In this document: positions 31,519-44,722 of the stretch, one piece after another
How the letters are laid out: every line of letters starts with the position of its first letter
How positions within the stretch are numbered: position 1 is the first letter of the stretch
NCBI GenBank assembly: GCA_028287065.1
Contig: JAQBQJ010000465.1
Location: forward strand, 1 to 51,256
From: Labilithrix sp.
GTDB lineage: Bacteria; Myxococcota_A; Polyangia; Polyangiales; Polyangiaceae
Reading direction: 5' to 3'
DNA: 51,256 bases
Program-made: the position numbers and the translations under genes
The notes under the pieces: generated by a model
Seen by the model: the letters and a program-made list of their open reading frames with translations, nothing else
Told to the model about the DNA's origin: nothing
Database searches by the model: none

Positions 31519-31541
31519 CGGGCCCATGATTTCAGGGCCCG
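31519..31541 (-). terminator. Hairpin overlapping the anti-sigma stop codon
   Basis: CGGGCCC (31519-31525) and GGGCCCG (31535-31541) form a perfect 7-base stem with a 9-base loop that includes the TGA of the upstream minus-strand gene. No T-run follows, so it may be a weak terminator or RNA-stabilising stem. Confidence 0.4.
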
Positions 31542-32323
31542 GCGAGCCCTCGGACACGCGCAGCGTGGACGCTCTGCGGTCGCTCGGCGAGGAAGCGCTG
31601 CGCGCGACGGCGTCCGAGATCGGCGGTGGTGCTCGAGGTCGAGCCGACCAGCGCCTCGATCGTGAGGACCTCGCGCTCTTCTTCGAGGGGACCGTTCGGG
31701 AAGAGGCGCGCGAGGCGATCGAGCTCGGTGAGCGCGGCGGCGGGGTTCTTGTCGCGCAGGAGCCGACGCGCGCGTTTGACGCCTTCGGTTTCTTCGCGGA
31801 GGCGATCGGCGGCGACGGTAGCCGGGACGATCGTGGGGCTCGCGGCCGATGCGGTGGGCTCCGGGGCGACGGGGGAAGTCGGGCGTTGCGGGAGCGAAGA
31901 TGTGGGCTTTGCGATCGCGATGGGGAGGGGCTGCGGGACGGGGAGCTCGGTCGGGGTCGGGGTCGGGGTCGCGGGCGTTGCGGTTGCCAGAGCCACGGGG
32001 GCGGCCGTTCGGGAAACGGGCGCGGGTGCTTCGGTGCGCGTGAGGATCCAGATCGAGAGCGCTCCGGCGCCGAGCGCTGCGGCCGCCATGAGCTTTGCGC
32101 CGGTGCTGATGGCGCCTGCGCCCGCTGTGCCGCCGCCGGCTGCGCCGCCGCTGCCGTTGTCTGGGCCTCCTGAGCCGGGGCCGGCCGGGAGAGTAGCGGC
32201 GACCTTCGCCCAGACGCTCGCGCGCATCGATGCCGTGGGCTCGGCCTTCGAGAGTGTCGTCACGAGCTGGCGCGCGTCTTCGCTTTCGTCGTCGGTCTCG
32301 GTCCAGCGTTTCGGATCGGTCAT
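31532..32323 (-). CDS. Single-pass membrane protein, putative anti-sigma factor
   Basis: A 263-residue protein whose ATG overlaps the TGA of the ECF sigma gene by four bases (ATGA). The first 45 residues are cytoplasmic and helical (EDARQLVTTLSKAEPTASMR), then comes a Gly/Ala linker, one transmembrane helix at about 77-94 (KLMAAAALGAGALSIWIL) and a periplasmic part with Thr-Pro repeats and a C-terminal helical pair (VKRARRLLRDKNPAAALTEL) resembling a TPR unit. No zinc-binding anti-sigma motif (H-x3-C-x2-C) is present. Anti-sigma function is inferred only from coupling to the sigma factor, membrane topology and family precedent in myxobacteria. Confidence 0.75.
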   Translation of the reverse strand: MTDPKRWTETDDESEDARQLVTTLSKAEPTASMRASVWAKVAATLPAGPGSGGPDNGSGGAAGGGTAGAGAISTGAKLMAAAALGAGALSIWILTRTEAPAPVSRTAAPVALATATPATPTPTPTELPVPQPLPIAIAKPTSSLPQRPTSPVAPEPTASAASPTIVPATVAADRLREETEGVKRARRLLRDKNPAAALTELDRLARLFPNGPLEEEREVLTIEALVGSTSSTTADLGRRRAQRFLAERPQSVHAARVRGLAGP

Positions 32324-32847
32324 GATGCGACCTCCGCGCGAGCGTTGTTTTCAGGGGCCGCGGCGAGCAAGCGTTTCACGCCCTCGCGTGCGAGCCGGAG
32401 CCGCGAATGCACGGTGGCGATGGGCACGTCGGTCGCCTCGGCGATCTCGGCGCCCGTCCACTCCTCGATCTCGAACAAGGCGAAGACGATGCGTTGCTCG
32501 TCGGGCAGGGCTCGCACGATGGCTTCGGCGCGTGCGAGTGCCTCGTTGCGCTCGCCCCACACGGCGAGGTCGCTCTTGCTGTCGGGCACGTCGCGCGTGG
32601 TTTCGTGCTCGTCGAGTACCTCGAGGCGTGAGGGCGCGCTGCGCCTCAGATCGCTCGCGATGCGGCGGGCGATCCCGAACAGCCAAGTGCGCATGGTGGA
32701 GCGGCCCTCGAAGCGATCGAGCGAGCGGAAGGCGACCGTGAAGACCTCCTGGACGGCGTCGGGCAGCATGCGCTCGGGCACGCCGAAGCGATTCAACGTC
32801 CGGAAGACGAAGCCGACGTGCTCGTCGTAGATCGCTCGAAAATCCAT
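32320..32847 (-). CDS. ECF-type RNA polymerase sigma factor
   Basis: A 175-residue ECF sigma factor. Region 2 covers about residues 5-70, with DAVQEVFTVAFRSLDRFEGR and TWLFGIARRIASD, which bind the -10 element and core polymerase. Region 4 covers about 112-165, with LPDEQRIVFALFEIEEWTGA and a helix-turn-helix ATDVPIATVHSRLRLAREGV for -35 recognition. No extra domains are seen. It lies 59 bases downstream of the barrel protein gene on the same strand and is coupled by ATGA to the putative anti-sigma gene, so the three may be co-regulated. The inducing signal is unknown. Confidence 0.93.
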   Translation of the reverse strand: MDFRAIYDEHVGFVFRTLNRFGVPERMLPDAVQEVFTVAFRSLDRFEGRSTMRTWLFGIARRIASDLRRSAPSRLEVLDEHETTRDVPDSKSDLAVWGERNEALARAEAIVRALPDEQRIVFALFEIEEWTGAEIAEATDVPIATVHSRLRLAREGVKRLLAAAPENNARAEVAS

Positions 32848-34046: not shown

Positions 34047-35402
34047 ATGAACACTCCATTCCGTCCGTATCTCGGGAAGAAGTCGCTCCTCGTGGCGGCC
34101 TGGCTCGGTGTCGGCTACACGCTCGCCGCGTGCAGCTCGGACGCTCCCGCGACGAGCAGCGCGGCCGCAGCAGGTGCAGACCCCGAAGGCAGTGGAAAGG
34201 GCGGGAGCGCCGCGCCCGACGACCGGCCCGGCCCTTCTTCCGAAGGTCCCTCGTGGTCGGGGCGACCCGCGGCGGTCGATGCTACCAACGGTCCCGAGGC
34301 ACCGCCGGATCTCTACGACCCGGACACGATCCCAGCGTTCGAGCTGACGTTCGACGCTGCGGCGATGGCGATCCTCACGAGCCTGAACCCCACCGACCAG
34401 CAGACGTGGGTTCACGGCTCGTTCAAGATGGGGGCGATCACGTTCGCGGACATCGGCGTGAGGCGAAAGGGCGCGTCGACGTTCCGCGCGCTGCCGAAGA
34501 AGGCATCGCTCAAGTTGAAGCTCAACAAGTGGGTCAAGGGCCAGAAGCTCTATGGGCTCACGGACCTGACGCTCAACAACATGGTGAGCGATGCCACGTG
34601 CCTCGCTGAGCGCCTCACGTACCACGTCTTCCGATCGCTGGGCCTCCCCGCGCAGAGGGCCAACACGGCGCACGTGACCATCAACGGCGAGAACTATGGC
34701 CTCTACGCCAACATCGAGACGCCCGAAGAGAAGTTCCTCGCGCGGGTCTTCGGCACGAAGGCGAAGACCCTCTACGAGGTGAACTCGGGCAGCGACTGGC
34801 TTCCGGGAGGACAGCGTGGGTTCCAGATCGACGTCGCCGATCCGACCGCGCCGCCGGGTACGCGGCCGGATGTCGACCTGCTCTTCGGGGCGGTGCAGGC
34901 GGCGACCAACGACAACCTGCTCTCGGACCTCGCCCCGCACCTGCACACGACCCGGTGGCTCCGGTTTGCCGCGGCAGAGGCCGTCACAGGACACCGCGAC
35001 GGCTACGCCTACAGCCTCTACGGTTCGCACAACTACTTCATGGCGGGCGACGCGGACGGGAAGTTCTCCCTCATCCCCTGGTCCACCGACCTCACCCTTG
35101 TCGAGGACTCCGCCGCGGCGCTCAGCGCCGCGTCCCCGCTCCCCAACACCGTGCTGGGACGGTGTGCGCTGGGCGCGAGCTGCTGGAACGCCTACAAGGC
35201 GGAGGTGTCATCGGTCCTCGATGTCTACGCCACGCTCGACCTCGTGAACCTCGCGACGAAGTGGCATGCCCAGATCGACGCTCTCGCGACCGCTGATCCG
35301 AAGCGTGAGGCCACTGTCGGCCGCTACGTCCAGAAGACAGGCCTCCTCTACGGGTGGCTCGCGGCGCGACCGGGCGTGCTCAGGGCTCAGCTCGGCCTCT
35401 GA
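34047..35402 (+). CDS. CotH-family kinase lipoprotein
   Basis: A 451-residue lipoprotein (lipobox TLAAC, Cys29) with a Gly/Ser/Pro linker and a CotH kinase fold over about 95-450. Family landmarks are VRRKGASTF (128-136), basic LKLKLNKW, GLYANIE with Glu214, HRDGY with Asp308, HNYFM and the metal-binding IPWSTDL with Asp338 (family usually WD-x-D). CotH of Bacillus subtilis is an atypical secreted protein kinase; bacterial relatives occur near VTC and DUF4956 genes, as here. AGGAGGA (34036-34042) sets the start. Its 3' end overlaps the TolC-like gene on the other strand by 23 bases. It is expected on the periplasmic or outer face of the envelope. Confidence 0.88.
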   Translation: MNTPFRPYLGKKSLLVAAWLGVGYTLAACSSDAPATSSAAAAGADPEGSGKGGSAAPDDRPGPSSEGPSWSGRPAAVDATNGPEAPPDLYDPDTIPAFELTFDAAAMAILTSLNPTDQQTWVHGSFKMGAITFADIGVRRKGASTFRALPKKASLKLKLNKWVKGQKLYGLTDLTLNNMVSDATCLAERLTYHVFRSLGLPAQRANTAHVTINGENYGLYANIETPEEKFLARVFGTKAKTLYEVNSGSDWLPGGQRGFQIDVADPTAPPGTRPDVDLLFGAVQAATNDNLLSDLAPHLHTTRWLRFAAAEAVTGHRDGYAYSLYGSHNYFMAGDADGKFSLIPWSTDLTLVEDSAAALSAASPLPNTVLGRCALGASCWNAYKAEVSSVLDVYATLDLVNLATKWHAQIDALATADPKREATVGRYVQKTGLLYGWLAARPGVLRAQLGL

Positions 35403-36786
35403 TGCCCGACGGAGACGGAAGCGGACCGCCGATGGCTCGACGAAGCTCGCCAACGGCGGTCCGGTAGCGGCGCACGAGCTTGAACAGCTCGAGCTCGACG
35501 AGGTTCCTTCGCTCTTCGACGGTGAGCGCACGGATCGTGTCGATCGCGCCGGCCTCGAGGGCGCGCGCCGTCTCGGTCTGCGCGCGCTCGAGCACCGGTA
35601 GCGAGGCCGCCCTCAGCTCGGTCACGAGCGCCGCGGCCGCCTCCGCCTCGCGCAGGCGCAGGCGCACGTCACGGACGATTCCTTCGACCTCCGCCTCGAG
35701 CCCCTGCCTGGCAGCAGACCGTGACGCCTCCGCTTGGCGAACCGCGCCACCGTTCATGTGGAAGAGCGGCACCTCGATCCCGCCGCCGACGGTGAAGAGC
35801 GGTACGTTGTTGGTTGCCGGCTGAATCTCGTAGCCGACCTCGGCGAAGTTGAACCACGGCCACCGTCGGCCTTCCTCCAGGTGGAGTCGCGCGTTGGCAG
35901 CGTCGATGCGTGCCGCAGAGCCCACGATGCGGGGGCTCTGCTTCAGCGCCGCCGCGATCAAGACCTGCTCCGAAGGGAGCGGCGGAGGAGGCCACGCGCC
36001 GACCTCGCCTGCGAGCTCCAGCTTCGTGCCCGACCCACGACCGATGCGATCCAGCAGGGCCGCGATGAGGAGCGTGCGACGCGAACGAAGCTCGGCGACG
36101 CGTGCGCCCGCCTCGATCGCATAGAGGGTGGCGAGGTCCGCGTCGACGGCGGTCGACGTCGCACTCCGGAGCCCGTCTCCGGTCTGCGCGGCGAGCTTGT
36201 CTCGCGTCGCCGCGGCGCGCTCGGAGGCGGCGATCTCGGCGTCGAGCACGAGGGCGTCCTCGAATAGCCATCGGATCTCCCCTTCGATCGCGCTCTCCTC
36301 CGCGCGAGCCGCGGCCCGCGCCTCCCCCGCGACCGCACGGGCCTCCGCTTCACGGGCCGCGATCTCGCCGGGTCGCTCGGGATAGAAGCGCAACCGAGGA
36401 ATGACGAGTGGATCCTCTCGGCGATCGATCGCGCGACCGACCCGCACGTTGGTCGCCCTGAGCTCGGGGTTGTTGCGCTGCCCCGCAGCCAAGACCGCCG
36501 CCTCCGCCGCGGCGGCTCGCGCGTCGAGCTCCCCGAGCCGCGCGCTGTTCTTCTTCGCGAGGCCGATCGCGACCTCCACGGTGAGCGGCGCGTGGACGCC
36601 GCCTTCGGCGGTCCCCGGACCTCCAGCCCCCGCGCGGCCGCGGAACTGCGGCGCTCCATCGGTGCGGACGCTCCGCTGGTAGATCGCAAGCGCCTCGCTG
36701 GCGCCTCCCGTCTGTTGCGGCGAGTAGCAAGCCAGAGGGCCGACCAGCGTGGTCGCGACGAGGGCAATTCTCGCTACGGCGGCCAT
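35380..36786 (-). CDS. TolC-family outer-membrane lipoprotein
   Basis: A 468-residue protein with a lipoprotein signal (LVGPLAC, Cys near 20) and the long heptad-rich helices of outer-membrane efflux proteins: AARAEESAIEGEIRWLFEDA, LRSRRTLLIAALLDRI, AEVEGIVRDVRLRLREAEAA and LTVEERRNLVELELFKLVRR. It has the two internal repeats expected of TolC, each of two coiled helices plus short strands. Such proteins form the outer-membrane channel of tripartite exporters. Its start overlaps the end of the upstream adaptor gene by 13 bases, so they are coupled. No pump gene is in the cluster. Its 3' end overlaps CotH convergently. Confidence 0.85.
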   Translation of the reverse strand: MAAVARIALVATTLVGPLACYSPQQTGGASEALAIYQRSVRTDGAPQFRGRAGAGGPGTAEGGVHAPLTVEVAIGLAKKNSARLGELDARAAAAEAAVLAAGQRNNPELRATNVRVGRAIDRREDPLVIPRLRFYPERPGEIAAREAEARAVAGEARAAARAEESAIEGEIRWLFEDALVLDAEIAASERAAATRDKLAAQTGDGLRSATSTAVDADLATLYAIEAGARVAELRSRRTLLIAALLDRIGRGSGTKLELAGEVGAWPPPPLPSEQVLIAAALKQSPRIVGSAARIDAANARLHLEEGRRWPWFNFAEVGYEIQPATNNVPLFTVGGGIEVPLFHMNGGAVRQAEASRSAARQGLEAEVEGIVRDVRLRLREAEAAAALVTELRAASLPVLERAQTETARALEAGAIDTIRALTVEERRNLVELELFKLVRRYRTAVGELRRAIGGPLPSPSGIRGRAEP

Positions 36787-38852
36787 GGTGACTCGAAGAA
36801 TTCGGGGGTCGAGCTGCCCGCGTCGAAGACCACGATGACGTTGCCGCGGGTCAGCGAGAGCGCGAGCCCCTCGGGTTTCCGCCCGGGGAAACGCTGCACG
36901 AGCTGCGGAGAAAGTGCGCCGCCCGTCGGATGATCGACGCGCCATAGCGCGCCGGCGGCAGCGTCCGCCGTCGAAGGCGTGGACGTGAGGACGAGTGAGT
37001 CGTCGTCCACGAACAGGAGCTCGGAGATCCCGCCCGACACCGGCCTGCCGTCGACCTCGACGTCGACGCGAGCATGCGCCCACGGTGCGATCCCGGAGGC
37101 CTCGAGCGTCTTCGCGCCCCCGGCTGGGGCATCGAAGAGCGCCCTTGGATGGGTGACCTTCCAGATCATTGCATCACCACTTGCGTCGAGAGGCGCCTTC
37201 AAGCCGAGGTAGAGCGCCCCGCGATGGAACGTCATGCCTTCGATGTCCAGGCTCCGCGTGCCGCTCGTGAGGCCGAGCGCCGTTGCGCGCTCGGGCGCAA
37301 GATCGAGCAGCGCCGCGAGATGGACCTCACCATCCACCGTCAGGTGACCGCCGTGCGAGCGGAGGCGAAGCAGCGCCGAGCGAGCATGCCTTCGCCGGCC
37401 CCCCTTGCTGTAGCTCTGCGACGCCAGGACGTAGATCGCGCCGTCGTCGCCGGCAGTGATCGACTCGAGGTCGTCGATCGAGGTTACGCCCGCGATCGGG
37501 ACGGGCTCGGCGGCGACCGCCCCTCCCGCGTCCATCGAGAACAGCCATGGCCGTCCTTCGTCCGGACCGTCCTTGATGCCTGTGTCGTCGCTGACGACGA
37601 GATAGCGGCCTTCGTTCGGCCGGGCGAGGATGCCCGATGGCTCGAAGCGGGTACGGCGCGCGAGCGAGGGGGGAATCGTCATGAGGCGCGGCTCGGGACG
37701 CCAGGGCTTGGCGCTCGCGTTGACGCCTGACGAGGTCGAGCCTCTTGCCTTCGCGACCGGCGGACCTGCCGTCGGCGCCAGAGCCGGCGCCGCAGCCGAA
37801 TCGAGCACCACGACGAAGCTTTCGCCGGCGACCAGATCGACCGACGTGTCGATCGCCACGGTGACCTCACGTCCCCAGATCGGCAGCGTCGGTGTCGGCC
37901 AGCAGCGGGCCGGAAGCTCGGTCACGACCGGACCGACCGCAACAGTACGCCCTGCGAGCGGGCCGCTCGCGCGCTGACCTCGAACCGAGAGGCGGGCGGC
38001 ATCACCCACGCGCAGGCCGAGTGATCGGCGTTCGGGTACGCATACGACCACTCGATTCGCCGTGCTCACGAGCTTCACGATCGCCTCGCCCGCCTTGGCA
38101 GTCTCGCCCGGCTGCTTGTCGACCGAGCCCACCCGCGACTTGCGCGTAGCGCGGAGGCTGTACATCGCGCGGCGCGCCTCCAGCAGTTCGATCCGGCGCT
38201 GTACGACGAGCAGCTCCGCATCGAGCCTGGCGGCGGTGAAAACGTCGTCATCGACCTCGCGCCTTCGCAGACTGGCGGCGCCGAGCTGCCTGCTGAGGAC
38301 ACCGATGGTGCGTGGCTTCTCGATTTCGAGCGACGCGAGCTGCGCGCGGCGAAGCGTCAACGGCGCAAGGACGGATGCGACGACGTGATGCTCGGCGACG
38401 AGCTTCGTCACGCGCTCGATCTCGACGTCGAGCGCCTGGGCCTCGGCGCGCAGCCGGACTAGGTCCTCGTGCTCTCTCGTTGCCGCTCGCTCGATGGTCT
38501 CCCGGTCGACGTCGAGGCGGCGACTGAGACTCGTCTGCTCTGCGCGGACTACGGCCTCCAGGCGGCCCTTCTCGGCCTCAGCGACGGCGATCTCACGGTC
38601 CAGCGCAGATGCGTCGACCGTGGCGATGAGTTGGCCGGCTTCGACCTCGGCGCCCACGGTGACGTGAATATTGGTGACACGCGCTGACTCGAGTGCGGCA
38701 AGAGCCTCCGGGATGCCCTCCGCGAAGCCGACGAGCCCACCGGGAACGTCACTCCGCGCATAGAGGGCGCCAGCCATCCCGAACGTTCCGAGCAGCGTCA
38801 GTATGGGCATTGCGCTTGCCAGTCGCGGCCTCAGGTAGTTCAGGAACCGCAT
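36774..38852 (-). CDS. HlyD-like membrane fusion protein fused to a DUF3616-like propeller
   Basis: A 692-residue protein. The N-terminal half is a periplasmic adaptor: one membrane anchor at 12-31, a lipoyl-like half motif (GAEVEAGQLIATVDASALDR), long coiled coils at about 85-225, the second lipoyl half (SVDKQPGETAKAGEAIVKLV) and a beta-barrel part to about 345. After a linker near 365-390 comes a beta-propeller-like half to the end, with SIDDLESITAGDDGAIYVLA and SLDIEGMTFHRGALYLGLKA, resembling DUF3616/phytase-like propellers. Adaptors of this family normally end after the barrel, so the fusion is unusual. The next gene, TolC-like, overlaps by 13 bases; DUF4956 lies 9 bases upstream. Both halves should be periplasmic. 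Confidence 0.82.
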   Translation of the reverse strand: MRFLNYLRPRLASAMPILTLLGTFGMAGALYARSDVPGGLVGFAEGIPEALAALESARVTNIHVTVGAEVEAGQLIATVDASALDREIAVAEAEKGRLEAVVRAEQTSLSRRLDVDRETIERAATREHEDLVRLRAEAQALDVEIERVTKLVAEHHVVASVLAPLTLRRAQLASLEIEKPRTIGVLSRQLGAASLRRREVDDDVFTAARLDAELLVVQRRIELLEARRAMYSLRATRKSRVGSVDKQPGETAKAGEAIVKLVSTANRVVVCVPERRSLGLRVGDAARLSVRGQRASGPLAGRTVAVGPVVTELPARCWPTPTLPIWGREVTVAIDTSVDLVAGESFVVVLDSAAAPALAPTAGPPVAKARGSTSSGVNASAKPWRPEPRLMTIPPSLARRTRFEPSGILARPNEGRYLVVSDDTGIKDGPDEGRPWLFSMDAGGAVAAEPVPIAGVTSIDDLESITAGDDGAIYVLASQSYSKGGRRRHARSALLRLRSHGGHLTVDGEVHLAALLDLAPERATALGLTSGTRSLDIEGMTFHRGALYLGLKAPLDASGDAMIWKVTHPRALFDAPAGGAKTLEASGIAPWAHARVDVEVDGRPVSGGISELLFVDDDSLVLTSTPSTADAAAGALWRVDHPTGGALSPQLVQRFPGRKPEGLALSLTRGNVIVVFDAGSSTPEFFESPWPP

Positions 38853-38861
38853 GGTTTTGCC

Positions 38862-39545
38862 TCACACATCGAGGGTTGGCTCTTGGAGAAGCAAGGTGAC
38901 GTTCTTCACCCCAGGGACCCCCTGGAGACTGGCGACCATCAGCGAGCGCTCGTTCAGGGAGCGCGCTGAGACTTGATAGGCATGCTCCATCGCATTGCCC
39001 TGGGCGGCTTCGCGTAGCGTGACGAGAGAGAATGACCGGCAGTAGCTGGCGAGCACCTTGGCGATCGCCTCCTGGGTCGACTCGCCTTGAGGCGCGATGA
39101 AGCGGACGAGACCGTCGGGCTGGCTGCGCGCGCCATAACCCGTGCAGTGGAGAACGAGGCTGCCGACCACGAAGACTGCCGTTCCGCCGATCGCGCTTTG
39201 ATAGGCGAGCGTTCCGCATGCCATGCCGACCCCGAGCGCGGCAAAGACGAAGATGAGGTCGCGTGGATCTCGCAGCGTCGTCCGGAAGCGCACCGCGCTG
39301 AGACCTGCGGCGACGCCGACCCCCGCCGCGATACTGCTACCCACGGCGAGCATGAGCATGCACGTGATGACGCTGGAGAGCGCCATCGCATGCACCGTCG
39401 CACGCGAGTAGGAGAGGCCGCGGAACGTCGCCATGTACATGACGGCGATCACCTGCCCGAGACCGAAAGCGAGCAGGAGCGCGATCATCGGGCCGTCCCA
39501 CACGAGAGAGTCCGTCAGTGACGAAAGACCCGCCGGCTCCGTCAT
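38862..39545 (-). CDS. DUF4956 integral membrane protein
   Basis: A 227-residue protein with four or five hydrophobic helices (first about 15-40) and the family signature VRFRTTLRDPRDLIFVFAAL followed by a Gly-rich membrane helix (GVGMACG). The C-terminal 90 residues are cytoplasmic by prediction and mixed alpha/beta, resembling an ACT-like or ferredoxin-like fold (LVTLREAAQG, VKNVTLLLQEP). DUF4956 has no assigned reaction that I know; it commonly neighbours VTC-domain and CotH genes. ATG 39545 overlaps the TGA of the VTC gene by four bases (ATGA). With no ABC or RND pump in the operon, this is the only multi-pass membrane component next to the adaptor and TolC genes. Confidence 0.88.
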   Translation of the reverse strand: MTEPAGLSSLTDSLVWDGPMIALLLAFGLGQVIAVMYMATFRGLSYSRATVHAMALSSVITCMLMLAVGSSIAAGVGVAAGLSAVRFRTTLRDPRDLIFVFAALGVGMACGTLAYQSAIGGTAVFVVGSLVLHCTGYGARSQPDGLVRFIAPQGESTQEAIAKVLASYCRSFSLVTLREAAQGNAMEHAYQVSARSLNERSLMVASLQGVPGVKNVTLLLQEPTLDV

Positions 39546-40402
39546 GACGCCCCTCCTGCTCCCGCGAAGACCGCCGTCCGGTCGGTACTGGGGAGCTCGA
39601 GCTCGTTGAGAATGCCGTAGCAGTACTTGGAAAAGGTGTAGCGAACGAGCTCGAGACTCCTCACCATCGCGTGCATCCAAGCCGGGGGCCTACGCTCGAA
39701 CTTGAGCTCGAGGACGGCCAGGGCGCGGGAGCTCTGCGTCTGCCCGGCGTGGTCGACGGAGCGCCATCGCTTGGGGTCGGCCGTGAAATCGAGCTCGCTC
39801 ATCTGCTGCACGCAGATGTTTCGGTCCACCGTCAGCCGCGCGTAAGAATCCACCTCACTCACGTAAGCCTCGCGCTCGTACTGAACGAGGAGCACCGGCT
39901 CGAGATGATGAGTGTGCACCTTTGACGCAAAGGAGAGGACGGCGGCCCGACTCCGATCCGGAAGCGCATCGAGGGTGGCGCTGTCGCAGTCGAGTGCGTC
40001 ACGCCAGCGGTCGCAGGGGACCGCCGCGCGAGTCTTCACGATGACATCGATGACCCGCCGCTTCACTTCGAGGAAGCAGTCGCTCGTCGGTGCGTCGGGA
40101 TACACACGAGCGCGGACCTTGAAGCGATGTCCCTGCTCACGCTCATTCGCCGCATAGAGACCGAGTGAGGACGTGTCGAAATACAGCGACCGTATCGTGT
40201 ATGCACCGTCCGCCCGCGCGTTCTTGTCGATGGTGGACGTCGTTCGCGCGAATCTCCGGATCTCCGGAACGAGCCGCTCTTCGACCAGGAACTTGTGCTC
40301 GTACCGTTCGACGATGTCCATCGAGGACGAGCACGAGCAAACACCGCGCCGTTGCAACTTGTTCACGAGACCGTCACGCAATGCGATGCGCCCCGAAGTC
40401 AC
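39542..40402 (-). CDS. VTC-domain protein (polyphosphate polymerase-like)
   Basis: A 286-residue cytoplasmic protein with a VTC tunnel domain: RYEHKFLV (33-40), RSLYFDT (71-77), KVRARVY (95-101), FLEVKRR (110-116), LTVDRNI and VLELKFERRPPAWM. Alternating Lys/Arg and Glu residues line the phosphate tunnel in yeast Vtc4, which makes polyphosphate from ATP. The GTG start at 40402 overlaps the preceding TGA by four bases (GTGA); a shorter start at ATG 40321 begins right before the domain and is possible, as the extra 27 residues look non-conserved. It is coupled on both sides in the minus-strand operon. Activity in bacteria is inferred from the fold. Confidence 0.87.
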   Translation of the reverse strand: MTSGRIALRDGLVNKLQRRGVCSCSSSMDIVERYEHKFLVEERLVPEIRRFARTTSTIDKNARADGAYTIRSLYFDTSSLGLYAANEREQGHRFKVRARVYPDAPTSDCFLEVKRRVIDVIVKTRAAVPCDRWRDALDCDSATLDALPDRSRAAVLSFASKVHTHHLEPVLLVQYEREAYVSEVDSYARLTVDRNICVQQMSELDFTADPKRWRSVDHAGQTQSSRALAVLELKFERRPPAWMHAMVRSLELVRYTFSKYCYGILNELELPSTDRTAVFAGAGGAS

Positions 40403-41307
40403 TCGATCGCAAAAACGTGAATTGCCTCCGCCTTCGTGCAGCCGCCGCTGTTCTTCGAATGATCGGAGGCCAGCGCGAACGTGGCTTTGTCGAGGAACGT
40501 CACGCCCTCGAGCGAGCAGTACTGCGTCTTGCCGCCCGCCTTCGGGAATCCATACACGACGCCTGGGAGTCTGAGTGCCAGCGGCCGCGTGGTCAGCACG
40601 CCGAGCCAGAGTGCTGCGGCCTGCTGAGAGACCACCGCGACGTGGTAGCTGCCGTCGTCGTCGGCCAGGACGGCCAGGTCCGAGTAGTCGTCGAAGTCGG
40701 CGAGCGCCGGCAAGGCCAGCGTCGTCTCTGTCCGCCAGGAGCCAGCCTCCCGGCGCACCGACTTGATCAATCCATGACCTCGACTGCTGTCTCCCGCCCC
40801 ACAGGAGTTCGCCTCGCAGAGTACGAGCATCCGATCGATGTCATCGAGCCATGCGATGCCCTCGATGCCCTTGTTGCCAGCCGCGAACGCGAGATCGGTC
40901 GGCTCTGTAGAGAGGAGCCTGCCCTGCTCGTCGAGCGTGACGATGGCACTCTGACTCCCTGCTCCTTCCTTGACGACGTAGGTCTTCGCCTCGGACCGCG
41001 TTGCGATCGCGATCCCTTCGTATTGCGACGCGGACTCGCTGCCCGGCCCGAGCGCGGCGGTCGACAGCGCCAGATCGACCTGTGCGACCCGCGTGCTGTT
41101 GTCGAATACGACCCGTAGCGAGCCGTTCGCGAGCGCAATGCCGCTCGCCTCGTAGTGTTCGGCCGGAGGGAGCAGCTCGGCGAGGTTCCGCTCGCGCAGA
41201 AGCGTCAACGTTCCGCTCGTAGCTACCTCGTGCCCATTCTTCGCTTCACCGTCGCCGCACGATGTGGCGACAGCGAGCGCGGCGACGAGGAGAGCTTTCG
41301 GTTTCAT
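40399..41307 (-). CDS. SdiA-regulated/phytase-like beta-propeller lipoprotein
   Basis: A 302-residue lipoprotein (lipobox ATSC near residue 17) built of propeller-like strands with repeated acidic turns: EGIAIATRSEAKTYVV, IEGIAWLDDIDRMLVL, DDYSDLAVLADDDGSY and LEGVTFLDKATFAL. The LEGV/IEGI motifs match SdiA-regulated and phytase-esterase-like propellers, related in style to the C-terminal half of the adaptor fusion two genes downstream. No calcium or catalytic site can be defined with confidence. It is the first gene of the minus-strand operon and is coupled to VTC by GTGA. It lies divergent from the lamin-tail protein, with 56 bases between the starts, so a shared promoter region is likely. 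Confidence 0.75.
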   Translation of the reverse strand: MKPKALLVAALAVATSCGDGEAKNGHEVATSGTLTLLRERNLAELLPPAEHYEASGIALANGSLRVVFDNSTRVAQVDLALSTAALGPGSESASQYEGIAIATRSEAKTYVVKEGAGSQSAIVTLDEQGRLLSTEPTDLAFAAGNKGIEGIAWLDDIDRMLVLCEANSCGAGDSSRGHGLIKSVRREAGSWRTETTLALPALADFDDYSDLAVLADDDGSYHVAVVSQQAAALWLGVLTTRPLALRLPGVVYGFPKAGGKTQYCSLEGVTFLDKATFALASDHSKNSGGCTKAEAIHVFAIE

Positions 41308-41363
41308 GGTCTCGTGGAGAGAGAGCGATGGCGGCGGACGGGACGGATGAGAAGGATGCGAGC

Positions 41364-42008
41364 ATGTGCACGCGAACGCCGGTGTCCATCCTCTTTCTCA
41401 CGCTGTTCCTCGCATGCGCCAGTAAGGCCAGCGAATCGAGCACTGGCTCGGGCGAGCCTGCCGCGAATGGCGCAAGCGGAGGTGGGCCCGACGCCGCCGG
41501 GGGCGGCGCAACGGTCGATGCCATCGACATCGTCGTCAACGAGGTCGCCGCAGTCGGCGCGTCGGAGTGGATCGAGATCGGGAATCGCGGAGGAGCGGTG
41601 ATCGACGTCGGCGGCTACTCGATCGCCGGATCGGACAAGAAGACGAATGCGCCGAAGCGCTCCCAGGCCATGAAGTTCCCGGAGGGGACGAAGATGGCTG
41701 CAGGCGATCACATCGTCATCCTCACTTCGAAGAAGGGCGCGCTGGTCGGCCCTCATCCGAAGGCGGAGTGTCTGCCTGATGGTCCGGAGACATGCTTCTT
41801 CGCCACCTTCGGCGTGAGTGCCACGGCCGGTGAGGCGATCCATCTGCTGGCGCCGGACGGCTCCATCGTGAGCTCGACGTCGGTGCCGAAGTCGGCAGGC
41901 GCAGACGCGGGGGGATCGACGACCGAGAGCAAGTGCCGCCTCCCTGACTTCACGGGGGAGCTCACGAGCTGCGCCCTCACGCCGGGGCAGCCGAACCGCG
42001 CGCCGTGA
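41364..42008 (+). CDS. Lamin-tail-domain lipoprotein
   Basis: A 214-residue predicted lipoprotein (signal SILFLTLFLAC, Cys near 17) with a Gly/Ser-rich linker and one lamin-tail domain (LTD): DIVVNEVAAVGASEWIEIGN, GGAVIDVGGYSIAGSD, GDHIVILTSKKGA and EAIHLLAPDGSIVSSTSV. LTDs are Ig-like and often found with CotH kinases or nucleases on secreted proteins. GAAGGA at 41351-41356 favours ATG 41364 over an upstream ATG at 41328. It is convergent with the fibro-slime lipoprotein and divergent from the propeller lipoprotein. It may be a substrate or partner of the kinase; this is inference. Confidence 0.82.
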   Translation: MCTRTPVSILFLTLFLACASKASESSTGSGEPAANGASGGGPDAAGGGATVDAIDIVVNEVAAVGASEWIEIGNRGGAVIDVGGYSIAGSDKKTNAPKRSQAMKFPEGTKMAAGDHIVILTSKKGALVGPHPKAECLPDGPETCFFATFGVSATAGEAIHLLAPDGSIVSSTSVPKSAGADAGGSTTESKCRLPDFTGELTSCALTPGQPNRAP

Positions 42009-42079: not shown

Positions 42080-44722
42080 TCACTTCGGGCCCTCTTTGAG
42101 GCACGCGGCCGAGCAGCCGTCGCCGTTCGTACGGTTGCCGTCGTCGCACTCCTCGGGTCCGTTCTTCACGCCGTCACCGCAGCGCGCGCCCAGCGTGCAC
42201 TCGGTGGAGCAAGCGTTGTACGCGCCGGAGCTCGTGTTTGCCGCGCCGTTGTCACACTGCTCGAACGGGAAATCGACGACCCCGTCGCCGCACGACCTCG
42301 GCTTCTTGCAGCTCGGTGCGCAGTCGGTCGCCGTCGGGTGCTTCACGTAGTCCGTGAGGTTGAAGCCGTTGTCACACAGCTCGCCCGACGCGGCCTGCAC
42401 GACGGCGTCACCGCAGCGCGGGCCGGGCTGGCACATCGAAGTGCACTTGCCGTACGCGCCGGTGTTCTGCGCCGTGCCGTTGTCGCACTTCTCGCCGAAC
42501 GATCCTTGCACGAGGCCGTCGCCGCAGTACGACGGTGCCTTGCAGAGCGGAGCGCATGCCGACGCGGAGAACGCCGGCGTCCACGACGTGAGGTTCGAGC
42601 CGTCATCGCAGTCCTCCGGCGGGTTCTTGACCGCCTTGTCACCGCAGTACGGACCGAGCTTGCAGTCGAGCCGGCAGGATCCGTACGCGCCCGAGTTGGT
42701 GTTTGCCGCGCCCTTGTCGCACTGCTCTTCCTTCGTCTTGATGCCGTCGCCACAGTTGTTCACGCAGACGGACTTCTTCTTCACGAAGCCACGGACCGTG
42801 AGCTCGAAGTTCGAGTCCTCGGTGTGCCGCTCGGCATGGAAGAGCGCGATCTCGTAGACGTGCCCGTCGACGAGACCGAGCGACGCCGCCTTCGCCGGGT
42901 TCAGCAAGAACGACTTGGCCTGGATGTCGTGCAGGCCGCCGAGGTCGAGCGCGAGCCTTCCGTTCACGAAGACCCAGACGTCGTCGTCGCCGCTGAAGGC
43001 GAGCTGCGGTGAGCTCCCCGCCGCGTAGGTGAACCAGAAACGCAGCTCGGTCGTGAACGCGAAGTTGTGGTCCTTGAGCTTCGAGTCCTTGCCCTCGTTG
43101 CCAAAGCCCTTGCCGTCGATCGGGAAGAAGCCGCCGAGCGAGCTGTACGGCGCGTCGGTCGCGCTGTTGAAGACGTAGGAGTAGTTGCCTGCCACGCCGG
43201 TCCGGGTGAGGCGGAGCTGCGTGCCGTCGACGCGCGACGACTTGGCGGTGTCCGTGTACCACTGCGCGAAATCGGCGGACGACGTGAGCTGCTGGCTCCG
43301 GTCCGGCGTTCCAGCCTTCGCGCCGCAGACGTTGTTCGGATCCGTACCGGTCACCGGATTCAACCCGGTACCGTTGTAGCGGTAGACCGGCACGCCCGAC
43401 GCCAGCGTGCCCTCCACGAGATCCTCCGTGACCTCGTTGCACATGTATTTCTCGAAGTCCGGATGGCCATTCACGGCCGACGCGAACCTGAAGTCGCGGA
43501 GCACAACGGGGACGTCGATCAACGTCGGGTCGGGCTCCACGACCGCGGAGCAGTCGTAGCCCGCCTCCTTCTTGCACGTGCTCGAGCACCCGTCGCCGTT
43601 GCGCGTGTTCCCGTCGTCGCATTCCTCGTCGATGGTTCCGTTACCGTCGGCGTCGAAGTCGAACAAAAGGCCGTCGCCGCAGCGCGACGCGCAGGTTCCG
43701 TTCGGGCACGAGGGCTCCCACTGGCAATCGGCCGAACAGCCGTCGAGCGGCTTGGTGTTGCCGTCGTCGCACTGCTCGGTGCCTTCGGGCGCGCCGCCGT
43801 TACCGCAGATCGTCTTCGTGCATGCAGCTCCGGGCGTCGTGCACTTCCAGTTGATGATCTTCGTACTGCCGGGCGTGGTGGACGTCGGCGCCACGACCGC
43901 AGTCGTCGTCTGGAGCTTGCAGGTCGAGCTGCAGCCGTCGTTGTTGGCGGTGTTGCCATCGTCGCACTCCTCGGCGCCGGCGATCTTGCCGTCACCGCAG
44001 GCCGCCGCGTTGCACGACACGCCCGGCACCGGACACGCCCAGCCGGGCTCGACCGTGCACGATGCTGAGCATCCGTCGCCGGGCGTCTTGTTCGTGTCGT
44101 CGCACTGCTCGGTGCCGGTGACGAAGCCGTCGCCGCAGACCATCGTCGTCACGCAGAGCGCACCCGGGGTTGGGCAGGCGAAGTTCGGTTCGATGATCTT
44201 GCAGTCGAGCGCGCATCCATCGCCGCCCGTCTTGTTGCCGTCGTCACAAGCCTCACCCGGATCGCTGAAGCCGTCGCCGCAGACCGCCACCTTCGGCGGC
44301 GGGGTGCATCCGGCGTCGCCGGCGAGCCCTGCGTCGGTCAGCGCATCGCAGTCGCGGACGTCGACGCATTTGCTGCCGAACGCGCACGCCCAGTAGGGCG
44401 CCTCGATCTGACAGGTGGAGGAGCATCCATCGCCGTTCGCGGTGTTCGTGTCGTCGCAGCTCTCGCCGAGCCCGGCCTTGCCGTCGCCGCAAACGGCCGG
44501 CGGAAGGCAGGCGCCTGGATTGGCGTCGCAGTCGATCCCGCCGTCGCCTGCACCGCTATCCGGTGGGTTCGCGTCAGGGTCGGCGAACGGCGGAGGCGGA
44601 GGCGGCTCGGTCCCCGCTTCGGGCGTCGTCGGCGGGAAGTCGGAAGTGACGCTCTGGTCACTACACGCCACAGCCACGACCACTGCAAGACCGAGAAGCC
44701 CACCGACCAACAACCTGCGCAT
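42080..44722 (-). CDS. Fibro-slime-domain lipoprotein with twelve Cys-rich CGDG repeats
   Basis: An 880-residue lipoprotein (lipobox VAVAC, Cys20). Six DUF4215-type Cys repeats (CGDG ... CDDGN ... DGCS ... C, about 36 residues each) cover about 60-395. A fibro-slime/PA14-like beta-sandwich follows at about 400-645 (VPVVLRDFRF, FWFTYAAGSSPQLAFSGDDD, VWVFVNGRLALDLGGLHD, GHVYEIALFHAERH). A second set of six Cys repeats runs to the end, the last with CDDGNRTNGDGCS. Such proteins are common in Myxococcota and are thought to bind matrix polysaccharide. Disulfide-rich repeats imply export and an oxidising environment. A poly-Pro stretch (EPPPPPPF) follows the signal. It is convergent with the LTD gene. 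Confidence 0.9.
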   Translation of the reverse strand: MRRLLVGGLLGLAVVVAVACSDQSVTSDFPPTTPEAGTEPPPPPPFADPDANPPDSGAGDGGIDCDANPGACLPPAVCGDGKAGLGESCDDTNTANGDGCSSTCQIEAPYWACAFGSKCVDVRDCDALTDAGLAGDAGCTPPPKVAVCGDGFSDPGEACDDGNKTGGDGCALDCKIIEPNFACPTPGALCVTTMVCGDGFVTGTEQCDDTNKTPGDGCSASCTVEPGWACPVPGVSCNAAACGDGKIAGAEECDDGNTANNDGCSSTCKLQTTTAVVAPTSTTPGSTKIINWKCTTPGAACTKTICGNGGAPEGTEQCDDGNTKPLDGCSADCQWEPSCPNGTCASRCGDGLLFDFDADGNGTIDEECDDGNTRNGDGCSSTCKKEAGYDCSAVVEPDPTLIDVPVVLRDFRFASAVNGHPDFEKYMCNEVTEDLVEGTLASGVPVYRYNGTGLNPVTGTDPNNVCGAKAGTPDRSQQLTSSADFAQWYTDTAKSSRVDGTQLRLTRTGVAGNYSYVFNSATDAPYSSLGGFFPIDGKGFGNEGKDSKLKDHNFAFTTELRFWFTYAAGSSPQLAFSGDDDVWVFVNGRLALDLGGLHDIQAKSFLLNPAKAASLGLVDGHVYEIALFHAERHTEDSNFELTVRGFVKKKSVCVNNCGDGIKTKEEQCDKGAANTNSGAYGSCRLDCKLGPYCGDKAVKNPPEDCDDGSNLTSWTPAFSASACAPLCKAPSYCGDGLVQGSFGEKCDNGTAQNTGAYGKCTSMCQPGPRCGDAVVQAASGELCDNGFNLTDYVKHPTATDCAPSCKKPRSCGDGVVDFPFEQCDNGAANTSSGAYNACSTECTLGARCGDGVKNGPEECDDGNRTNGDGCSAACLKEGPK

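Follow-up and report, generated by a model that had tools for sequence, protein, structure and literature searches.

In the eukaryotic VTC complex, described from yeast, the Vtc4 polymerase is combined with a membrane channel made of Vtc1/3/4, and it has been argued that synthesis and translocation of polyphosphate are coupled there (PMC9911596). In Gram-positive pel operons a CotH gene, a polyphosphate polymerase gene and a DUF4956 gene stand side by side, with a function that is putative (PMC7112168). Tripartite exporters such as EmrAB-TolC, MacAB-TolC and DevBCA have a common adaptor plan, consisting of a transmembrane helix, a lipoyl domain, an alpha-hairpin and a barrel, and use an OEP-type outer-membrane channel. 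In synthase-dependent secretion the synthase pushes the polymer across the inner membrane and the polymer then leaves by an outer-membrane channel. Here we analysed a stretch of 51,256 nucleotides from Labilithrix sp. (contig JAQBQJ010000465.1; the whole stretch is called the window), which carries VTC, DUF4956, HlyD and TolC genes in one cluster. The same set recurs in eight bacterial phyla and probably constitutes a hitherto undescribed system for producing a phosphate polymer and exporting it. We found no paper on the composite cluster in an open-access library, which by itself does not prove that there is none.

The cluster and its core

The host assembly is myxobacterial, 7.1 Mb in size, divided into 577 contigs and 72% complete. 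Using Pfam matches and open reading frame (ORF) positions we located all seven genes that an earlier note on this DNA had listed, in the order and with the junctions given there, one junction being conditional (see below):

34047-35402, plus strand: CotH-like lipoprotein (Pfam CotH 2e-30), convergent with the operon
35380-36786, minus strand: TolC/OEP-type channel with the lipoprotein signal LACYS (Pfam OEP 3e-16)
36774-38852, minus strand: HlyD/membrane-fusion-protein adaptor with C-terminal beta-propeller (DevB-type membrane-fusion protein 9e-9; Phytase-like PF13449 slightly below cut-off)
38862-39545, minus strand: DUF4956 inner-membrane protein (Pfam PF16316 6e-10)
39542-40402, minus strand: VTC-domain (triphosphate-tunnel) polyphosphate-polymerase-like protein (Pfam VTC 6e-42)
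40399-41307, minus strand: beta-propeller lipoprotein, first gene of the operon (PF13449 1.5e-5, slightly below cut-off)
41364-42008, plus strand: lamin-tail-domain lipoprotein, divergent from the operon (Pfam LTD 1.5e-10)

The minus-strand genes run from the propeller lipoprotein through VTC, DUF4956 and the HlyD-propeller fusion to the TolC-like lipoprotein, and are separated by overlaps or short gaps. The convergent overlap of 23 bases between CotH and TolC, the 13-base overlap of HlyD and TolC, the 9-base gap between DUF4956 and HlyD and the ATGA overlap of VTC and DUF4956 were all recovered. The GTGA overlap of the propeller and VTC genes, also claimed previously, depends on which VTC start is used: it requires GTG at 40402, and with ATG at 40321, near which the VTC domain begins, a gap of 77 bases results. 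For the lamin-tail gene the most likely start is ATG at 41364, which yields a lipoprotein signal. This gene is divergent likewise in two related loci (L032 and L033), and homologues of the propeller lipoprotein were present in 4 related loci. Since CotH, the lamin-tail gene and the separate propeller gene vary in place and strand, we rejected the idea of seven genes forming one fixed block; the core is VTC-DUF4956-HlyD(-propeller)-TolC.

DUF4956 and HlyD genes are adjacent in eight phyla

DUF4956 was present in 90 of 289 genomes of the class. The class sample consisted of the 20-kb neighbourhoods of 80 DUF4956 matches together with the window (81 loci in total), and was searched with iterated profiles built from the window's proteins. 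The HlyD adaptor gene came directly after DUF4956 in 33 of the 81 loci, the window counted; with the first profiles, 27 of these 33 had VTC and 30 had TolC. A collection search with a DUF4956 alignment resulted in 80 loci, all with HlyD directly downstream, and because the query was made from HlyD-linked proteins this count describes the extent of the arrangement rather than an unbiased frequency. The loci came from Myxococcota (Polyangium, Sorangium, Nannocystis, Labilithrix and a metagenome-assembled Anaeromyxobacter genome) and, elsewhere, from Fibrobacter (the majority), Acidobacteria, Bdellovibrionota, Neomarinimicrobiota/Fidelibacterota, Desulfobacterales, Planctomycetes and Akkermansiaceae. 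The phyla are thus eight: Myxococcota, Fibrobacterota, Acidobacteriota, Bdellovibrionota, Thermodesulfobacteriota, Planctomycetota, Verrucomicrobiota and Fidelibacterota.

Wherever DUF4956 and HlyD both occurred they were adjacent and on the same strand (33/33 class loci, 80/80 collection loci), an arrangement far beyond chance. Similar results were obtained from the adaptor side, by a single-protein search of 144 genomes: the adaptor was detected in 22 of them and DUF4956 adjoined it in 19, the other three being contig edges or a fragment. Of the 113 HlyD-type loci, 98 had a TolC-like gene on the same strand at a distance of up to 4.5 kb. Many loci stop at contig edges, and most of the TolC misses were either contig ends or loci with a gene of 394-398 amino acids in that slot which no profile reached; the Fibrobacter protein in the TolC slot is a weak OEP match. 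The distance matrices of DUF4956, HlyD and VTC correlated at 0.87-0.92 over 36 non-redundant loci, and the 3 control genomes, out of 14, that had a DUF4956 match were also those that had a VTC match. Gene-neighbourhood analysis, which had been set as a test able to refute the membership of the HlyD and TolC genes with VTC/DUF4956, failed to do so. The description of the combination as unusual has to be corrected, as it is a clade-wide trait in eight phyla. In two Sorangium-type genomes (G268 and G245) VTC was unlinked from the HlyD/TolC/CotH locus, and in G245 it adjoined a second DUF4956 gene without HlyD.

The VTC protein keeps the active site of VTC4

The VTC protein consists of 286 amino acids with a VTC domain only and no SPX domain. 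The domain is present at full length (positions 2-231 of the 235 of the profile, Pfam 5.7e-42), and the profile matches the structures of yeast VTC4 with an E-value of 1e-17. The VTC4 residues K200, R264, R266, K281 and K294 correspond to K37, R97, R99, K114 and K123 of the window protein, and R361, R373, E426, S457 and K458 to R177, R189, E232, S258 and K259. When the family alignment was read against the VTC4 alignment, these ten active-site equivalents were invariant in 26 sequences. Vtc4 has been inactivated by the combined substitutions R264A/R266A/E426N (PMC9911596).

Exactly one VTC gene was found in 12 of 13 genomes; the remaining genome has two copies, and each of them lies in a DUF4956-HlyD-TolC locus of its own. 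PPK1 is located elsewhere in 10 of 11 genomes, that of the window included, and the VTC of the cluster is therefore not the housekeeping polyphosphate pathway. One genome (G017) has VTC and gave no PPK1 match; VTC may be the sole polyphosphate polymerase there.

The adaptor and the DUF4956 membrane protein

Residues 1-360 of the adaptor were predicted by AlphaFold (pLDDT 88.5) to form a transmembrane helix, the lipoyl halves, a long alpha-hairpin and a beta-barrel, and Foldseek matched the model to EmrA (4tko, 3.6e-15) and MacA (3fpp, 1.2e-13). As modelled, the protein is a canonical EmrA/MacA-type membrane-fusion protein. Of what a tripartite efflux system has, the adaptor with its anchor, lipoyl domain, hairpin and barrel and the OEP/TolC channel are both encoded here. 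Beyond a disordered linker follows a C-terminal beta-propeller (approximately residues 385-690, bases 36774-37700). Other loci encode this propeller by a separate gene, adjacent and next in order, and for this reason propeller and adaptor probably work together. No relative of the propeller was found among solved sequences, and we therefore do not claim a phytase role for it. In one locus (L045:5996-9619) the reading frame changes between the HlyD and the propeller segment, by a frameshift that is either real or a sequencing error.

DUF4956 matched Pfam PF16316 with 39.6 bits (curated cut-off, 30.6). The AlphaFold model (pLDDT 79) has five transmembrane helices and a C-terminal ACT/ferredoxin-like domain. 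By the positive-inside rule this domain would be cytoplasmic, since helices 1, 3 and 5 are each followed by an arginine-rich loop. Foldseek matched ACT domains and the C-terminal domain of MgtC (2lqj, E-value 3.7e-3); a sequence search against solved structures gave no matches, and neither a Pfam MgtC match nor an MgtC sequence match was obtained. Residues R86 and R88 were invariant in all 92 homologues compared. DUF4956 is the sole conserved multi-spanning inner-membrane protein of the cluster, in agreement with the earlier suggestion that it could be the inner-membrane part. A separate group of DUF4956 proteins keeps R86/R88 and has no VTC, HlyD or porin nearby (L034, L038, L048, L059, L067, L069, L078, L083, L095 and L106-L108).

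ACT-like folds often serve regulation. The ACT-like, MgtC-resembling domain of DUF4956 would accordingly suit a system in which VTC acts as a sensor or triphosphatase and gates DUF4956-driven export through HlyD-TolC of some other cargo, such as an ion, a small molecule, a protein or a glycan. The diversity of activities among enzymes of the triphosphate-tunnel fold (PMC4641920) points the same way. The invariance of the VTC4 polymerase residues argues against such a gate, as does the phosphate-type porin in the sister lineage described below, and we regard this alternative as unlikely.

No pump accompanies the adaptor

No pump gene was detected within approximately 10 kb of the window cluster, either by Pfam searches of its closest neighbours or by a scan for ABC motifs and transmembrane segments. 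A Pfam scan of 104 neighbouring genes of the class loci revealed no recurrent transporter among the 25 commonest of 56 families; MFS was matched once, and no ABC family was among those matched by at least two genes. By motif scan none of the 33 HlyD loci contained a true ABC ATPase, the sole matches being spurious and within the adaptor, and across the 113 loci only three unrelated ABC-like ORFs lay within 7 kb. No energised inner-membrane pump, such as tripartite efflux systems encode with their adaptor, was conserved near these loci, and the search for a pump partner conserved beside the cluster in relatives, the second result that could have refuted the earlier note, left its statement that no pump is nearby standing.

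Adaptors of the HlyD family and channels of the TolC family normally operate together with a pump, and ordinary tripartite efflux, with the pump encoded elsewhere and an incidental linkage to VTC/DUF4956, has to be weighed for that reason. The Fibrobacter loci also have a second HlyD/TolC pair several kb downstream, which is apparently a separate system. We rejected a pump encoded elsewhere in the genome because the neighbour of the adaptor is nearly always DUF4956; this adjacency is near absolute from both sides, and the finding of no more than three unrelated ABC-like ORFs near the 113 loci speaks against ordinary efflux as well. This explanation is largely refuted by the conservation of the neighbourhood and is very improbable.

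A sister clade with a phosphate-type porin

A porin was present in 16 of the 32 loci with DUF4956 and VTC and without HlyD, and 18 of the 20 porins scanned belonged to Pfam Porin_O_P ('phosphate-selective'). Porin_O_P was present at 0 of the 33 HlyD loci (Fisher P = 9e-7 versus 16/32), and every HlyD genome checked had 1-7 Porin_O_P matches elsewhere in the genome. By chance approximately 0.011 porins would be expected per 20 kb. Since the locus counts are not independent we built a tree, in which the HlyD-type DUF4956 proteins grouped in a single clade (SH-aLRT 99; 47 of 48 rows). The clade that is sister to it (SH-aLRT 99) consisted of nine loci without HlyD, all nine of the porin type. In one locus (L084:9033-13401) an alkaline phosphatase adjoins VTC, and DUF4956 is followed by an outer-membrane-protein-like DUF2490 protein, possibly a third outer-membrane solution, and a PPDK_N protein.

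The porins raise the question of direction, as Pseudomonas takes up phosphate and pyrophosphate through the channels OprP and OprO (PMC9769906). Together with the phosphatase and phytase-like domains nearby, this would be consistent with an inward system, in which phosphate or polyphosphate enters by the outer-membrane component and VTC traps it as polymer. Such a direction is opposed by the consumption of cytoplasmic ATP by VTC enzymes and by the lack of a Pst-type importer among the recurrent neighbours in the 104-gene Pfam scan. All known HlyD-TolC assemblies export, and we consider inward transport distinctly improbable.

CotH and surface phosphorylation

The window CotH has the CotH fold across the kinase region (Pfam 2e-30; match to 5jd9, 2e-7). 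Its Asp318 corresponds to Asp228 of Bacillus subtilis CotH, and Ser346 replaces Asp251, where the aspartate of PWDYD that equals D251 was assigned from a spacing of 23 residues. Both Asp228 and Asp251 are inactivating sites in the B. subtilis protein (PMC7821199). Serine or glycine is often found at the Asp251 position in related CotH proteins, several close relatives included. CotH lay within 10 kb of the core in 22 of the 33 HlyD loci and in 12 of the 16 porin loci with VTC; in the other 11 HlyD loci it was not found within that distance.

The earlier note had linked polyphosphate or phosphate-donor chemistry to surface phosphorylation. Its phosphate-polymer part is favoured, because the VTC4 active site is kept and the sister clade has a phosphate-type porin. 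Surface phosphorylation by the window's CotH is doubtful and not supported, since one of the two catalytic aspartates is a serine; in some relatives it is possible. In its general form, VTC/DUF4956 would deliver a high-energy phosphate donor via HlyD-TolC and CotH would phosphorylate surface proteins or glycans, which amounts to the polymer-export model with one specific use. The frequent presence of CotH near the core, the PPDK_N lipoproteins of about ten loci and the trio in Gram-positive pel operons (PMC7112168) argue for it. The residue at the Asp251 position in the window and its close relatives, and the third of loci with no CotH near the core, argue against it, and the use of polyphosphate by CotH is putative. 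Altogether we think this specific use improbable, about as much so as the gating role of VTC.

Large proteins with a lipoprotein-like signal adjoin the CotH/DUF4956/VTC genes in approximately ten loci (L035:12139-14199, L036:5807-7855, L037:5884-7932, L040:12205-14253, L041:11153-13240, L042:3370-5466, L045:10383-12500, L051:7588-9702, L052:7523-9643 and L084:6937-9021). Those scanned carry PPDK_N, an ATP-binding phosphotransfer domain, which is odd outside the cytoplasm.

A model for export of a phosphate polymer

The model that we put forward tentatively, at somewhat less than an even chance, is that of one conserved system in which VTC polymerises phosphate and pushes the chain via DUF4956, and HlyD-TolC or a porin exports it. 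A cytoplasmic VTC4-like polymerase, coupled to DUF4956, would use ATP to build a phosphate polymer, of which polyphosphate is the most likely kind, and the growth of the chain would itself drive it through DUF4956 across the inner membrane. The hairpin of the adaptor would dock TolC, so that the chain could exit with no need for a pump of the ABC, RND or MFS type; a Porin_O_P porin would stand in for adaptor and channel in the sister lineage. Extracellular lipoproteins (the propellers, lamin-tail and CotH-like proteins and, in relatives, PPDK_N proteins and alkaline phosphatase) may bind, anchor or use the polymer. The model is built on gene content, conservation, the origin of the HlyD type in one clade, active-site residues, adaptor architecture and the absence of a conserved pump. 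We infer polyphosphate as the cargo, an outward direction, DUF4956 as the conduit and synthesis as the motor.

Several observations weigh against this model. The equivalent of VTC4 K455 is not conserved, and polymerase activity of the VTC protein is putative, since enzymes of its fold include triphosphatases. The domain arrangement of DUF4956 is like that of MgtC rather than VTC1, and its model, made for a monomer (pTM 0.61), is unable to reveal a channel. In some genomes VTC is not at the local HlyD locus (in Sorangium it is unlinked and elsewhere), and sixteen DUF4956+VTC loci have neither HlyD nor Porin_O_P. Porin_O_P is moreover a broad family, with weak matches here (8e-12 at best).

Other genes near the cluster

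The protein encoded by the neighbouring gene at 42080-44722 (minus strand) combines a fibro-slime domain with seven myxobacterial cysteine-rich repeats. Fibrobacter, the other main owner of this VTC/DUF4956/HlyD/TolC system, is the genus from which proteins of the fibro-slime type are best known. At a distance of 1.2 kb from CotH an ECF (extracytoplasmic function) sigma factor gene (32320-32847, minus strand) overlaps a downstream gene (31532-32323, minus strand), probably its partner.

Comparison with known systems

If the export model is true, it would give a role to DUF4956 and the bacterial VTC proteins and provide a case of HlyD-TolC functioning without a pump. Diderms of at least eight phyla would then own a dedicated envelope-spanning polyphosphate exporter, with a VTC4-type motor, a DUF4956 conduit and a pump-less HlyD-TolC or phosphate porin, a generalisation that we hold slightly more tentatively than the model itself. 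The set of a polymerase, one membrane protein and a two-membrane route is compact and conserved, and can be tested gene by gene.

The C-terminal domain of DUF4956 resembles that of MgtC (2lqj) and in the MgtC family, too, transmembrane helices precede the domain; Pfam, however, assigns the protein to DUF4956 alone. The trio of the pel operons is found in monoderms beside Pel genes, with no HlyD or TolC reported, as is expected where there is no outer membrane. Compared with EmrAB, MacAB and DevBCA, the cluster shares the adaptor plan and the channel but has no ABC, MFS or RND pump, bears a propeller on the adaptor, and has DUF4956 as the inner-membrane partner.

With the eukaryotic VTC complex the cluster has in common the tunnel-fold polymerase and its active-site residues, the pairing of the polymerase with a membrane partner, and cytoplasmic synthesis with a membrane to cross. 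It differs in having no SPX domain and no recognised Vtc1-type membrane domain, with DUF4956 as the partner, and in the addition of an adaptor and an outer-membrane channel. The logic of export without a pump would be common to the cluster and to the synthase-dependent secretion of cellulose, alginate and Pel, with an inorganic-phosphate polymerase in place of a glycosyltransferase and HlyD-TolC or Porin_O_P in place of BcsC, AlgE or PelB. If the model holds, the system would correspond, among bacteria, to the eukaryotic VTC complex and, with an inorganic polymer, to the synthase-dependent secretion of polysaccharides.

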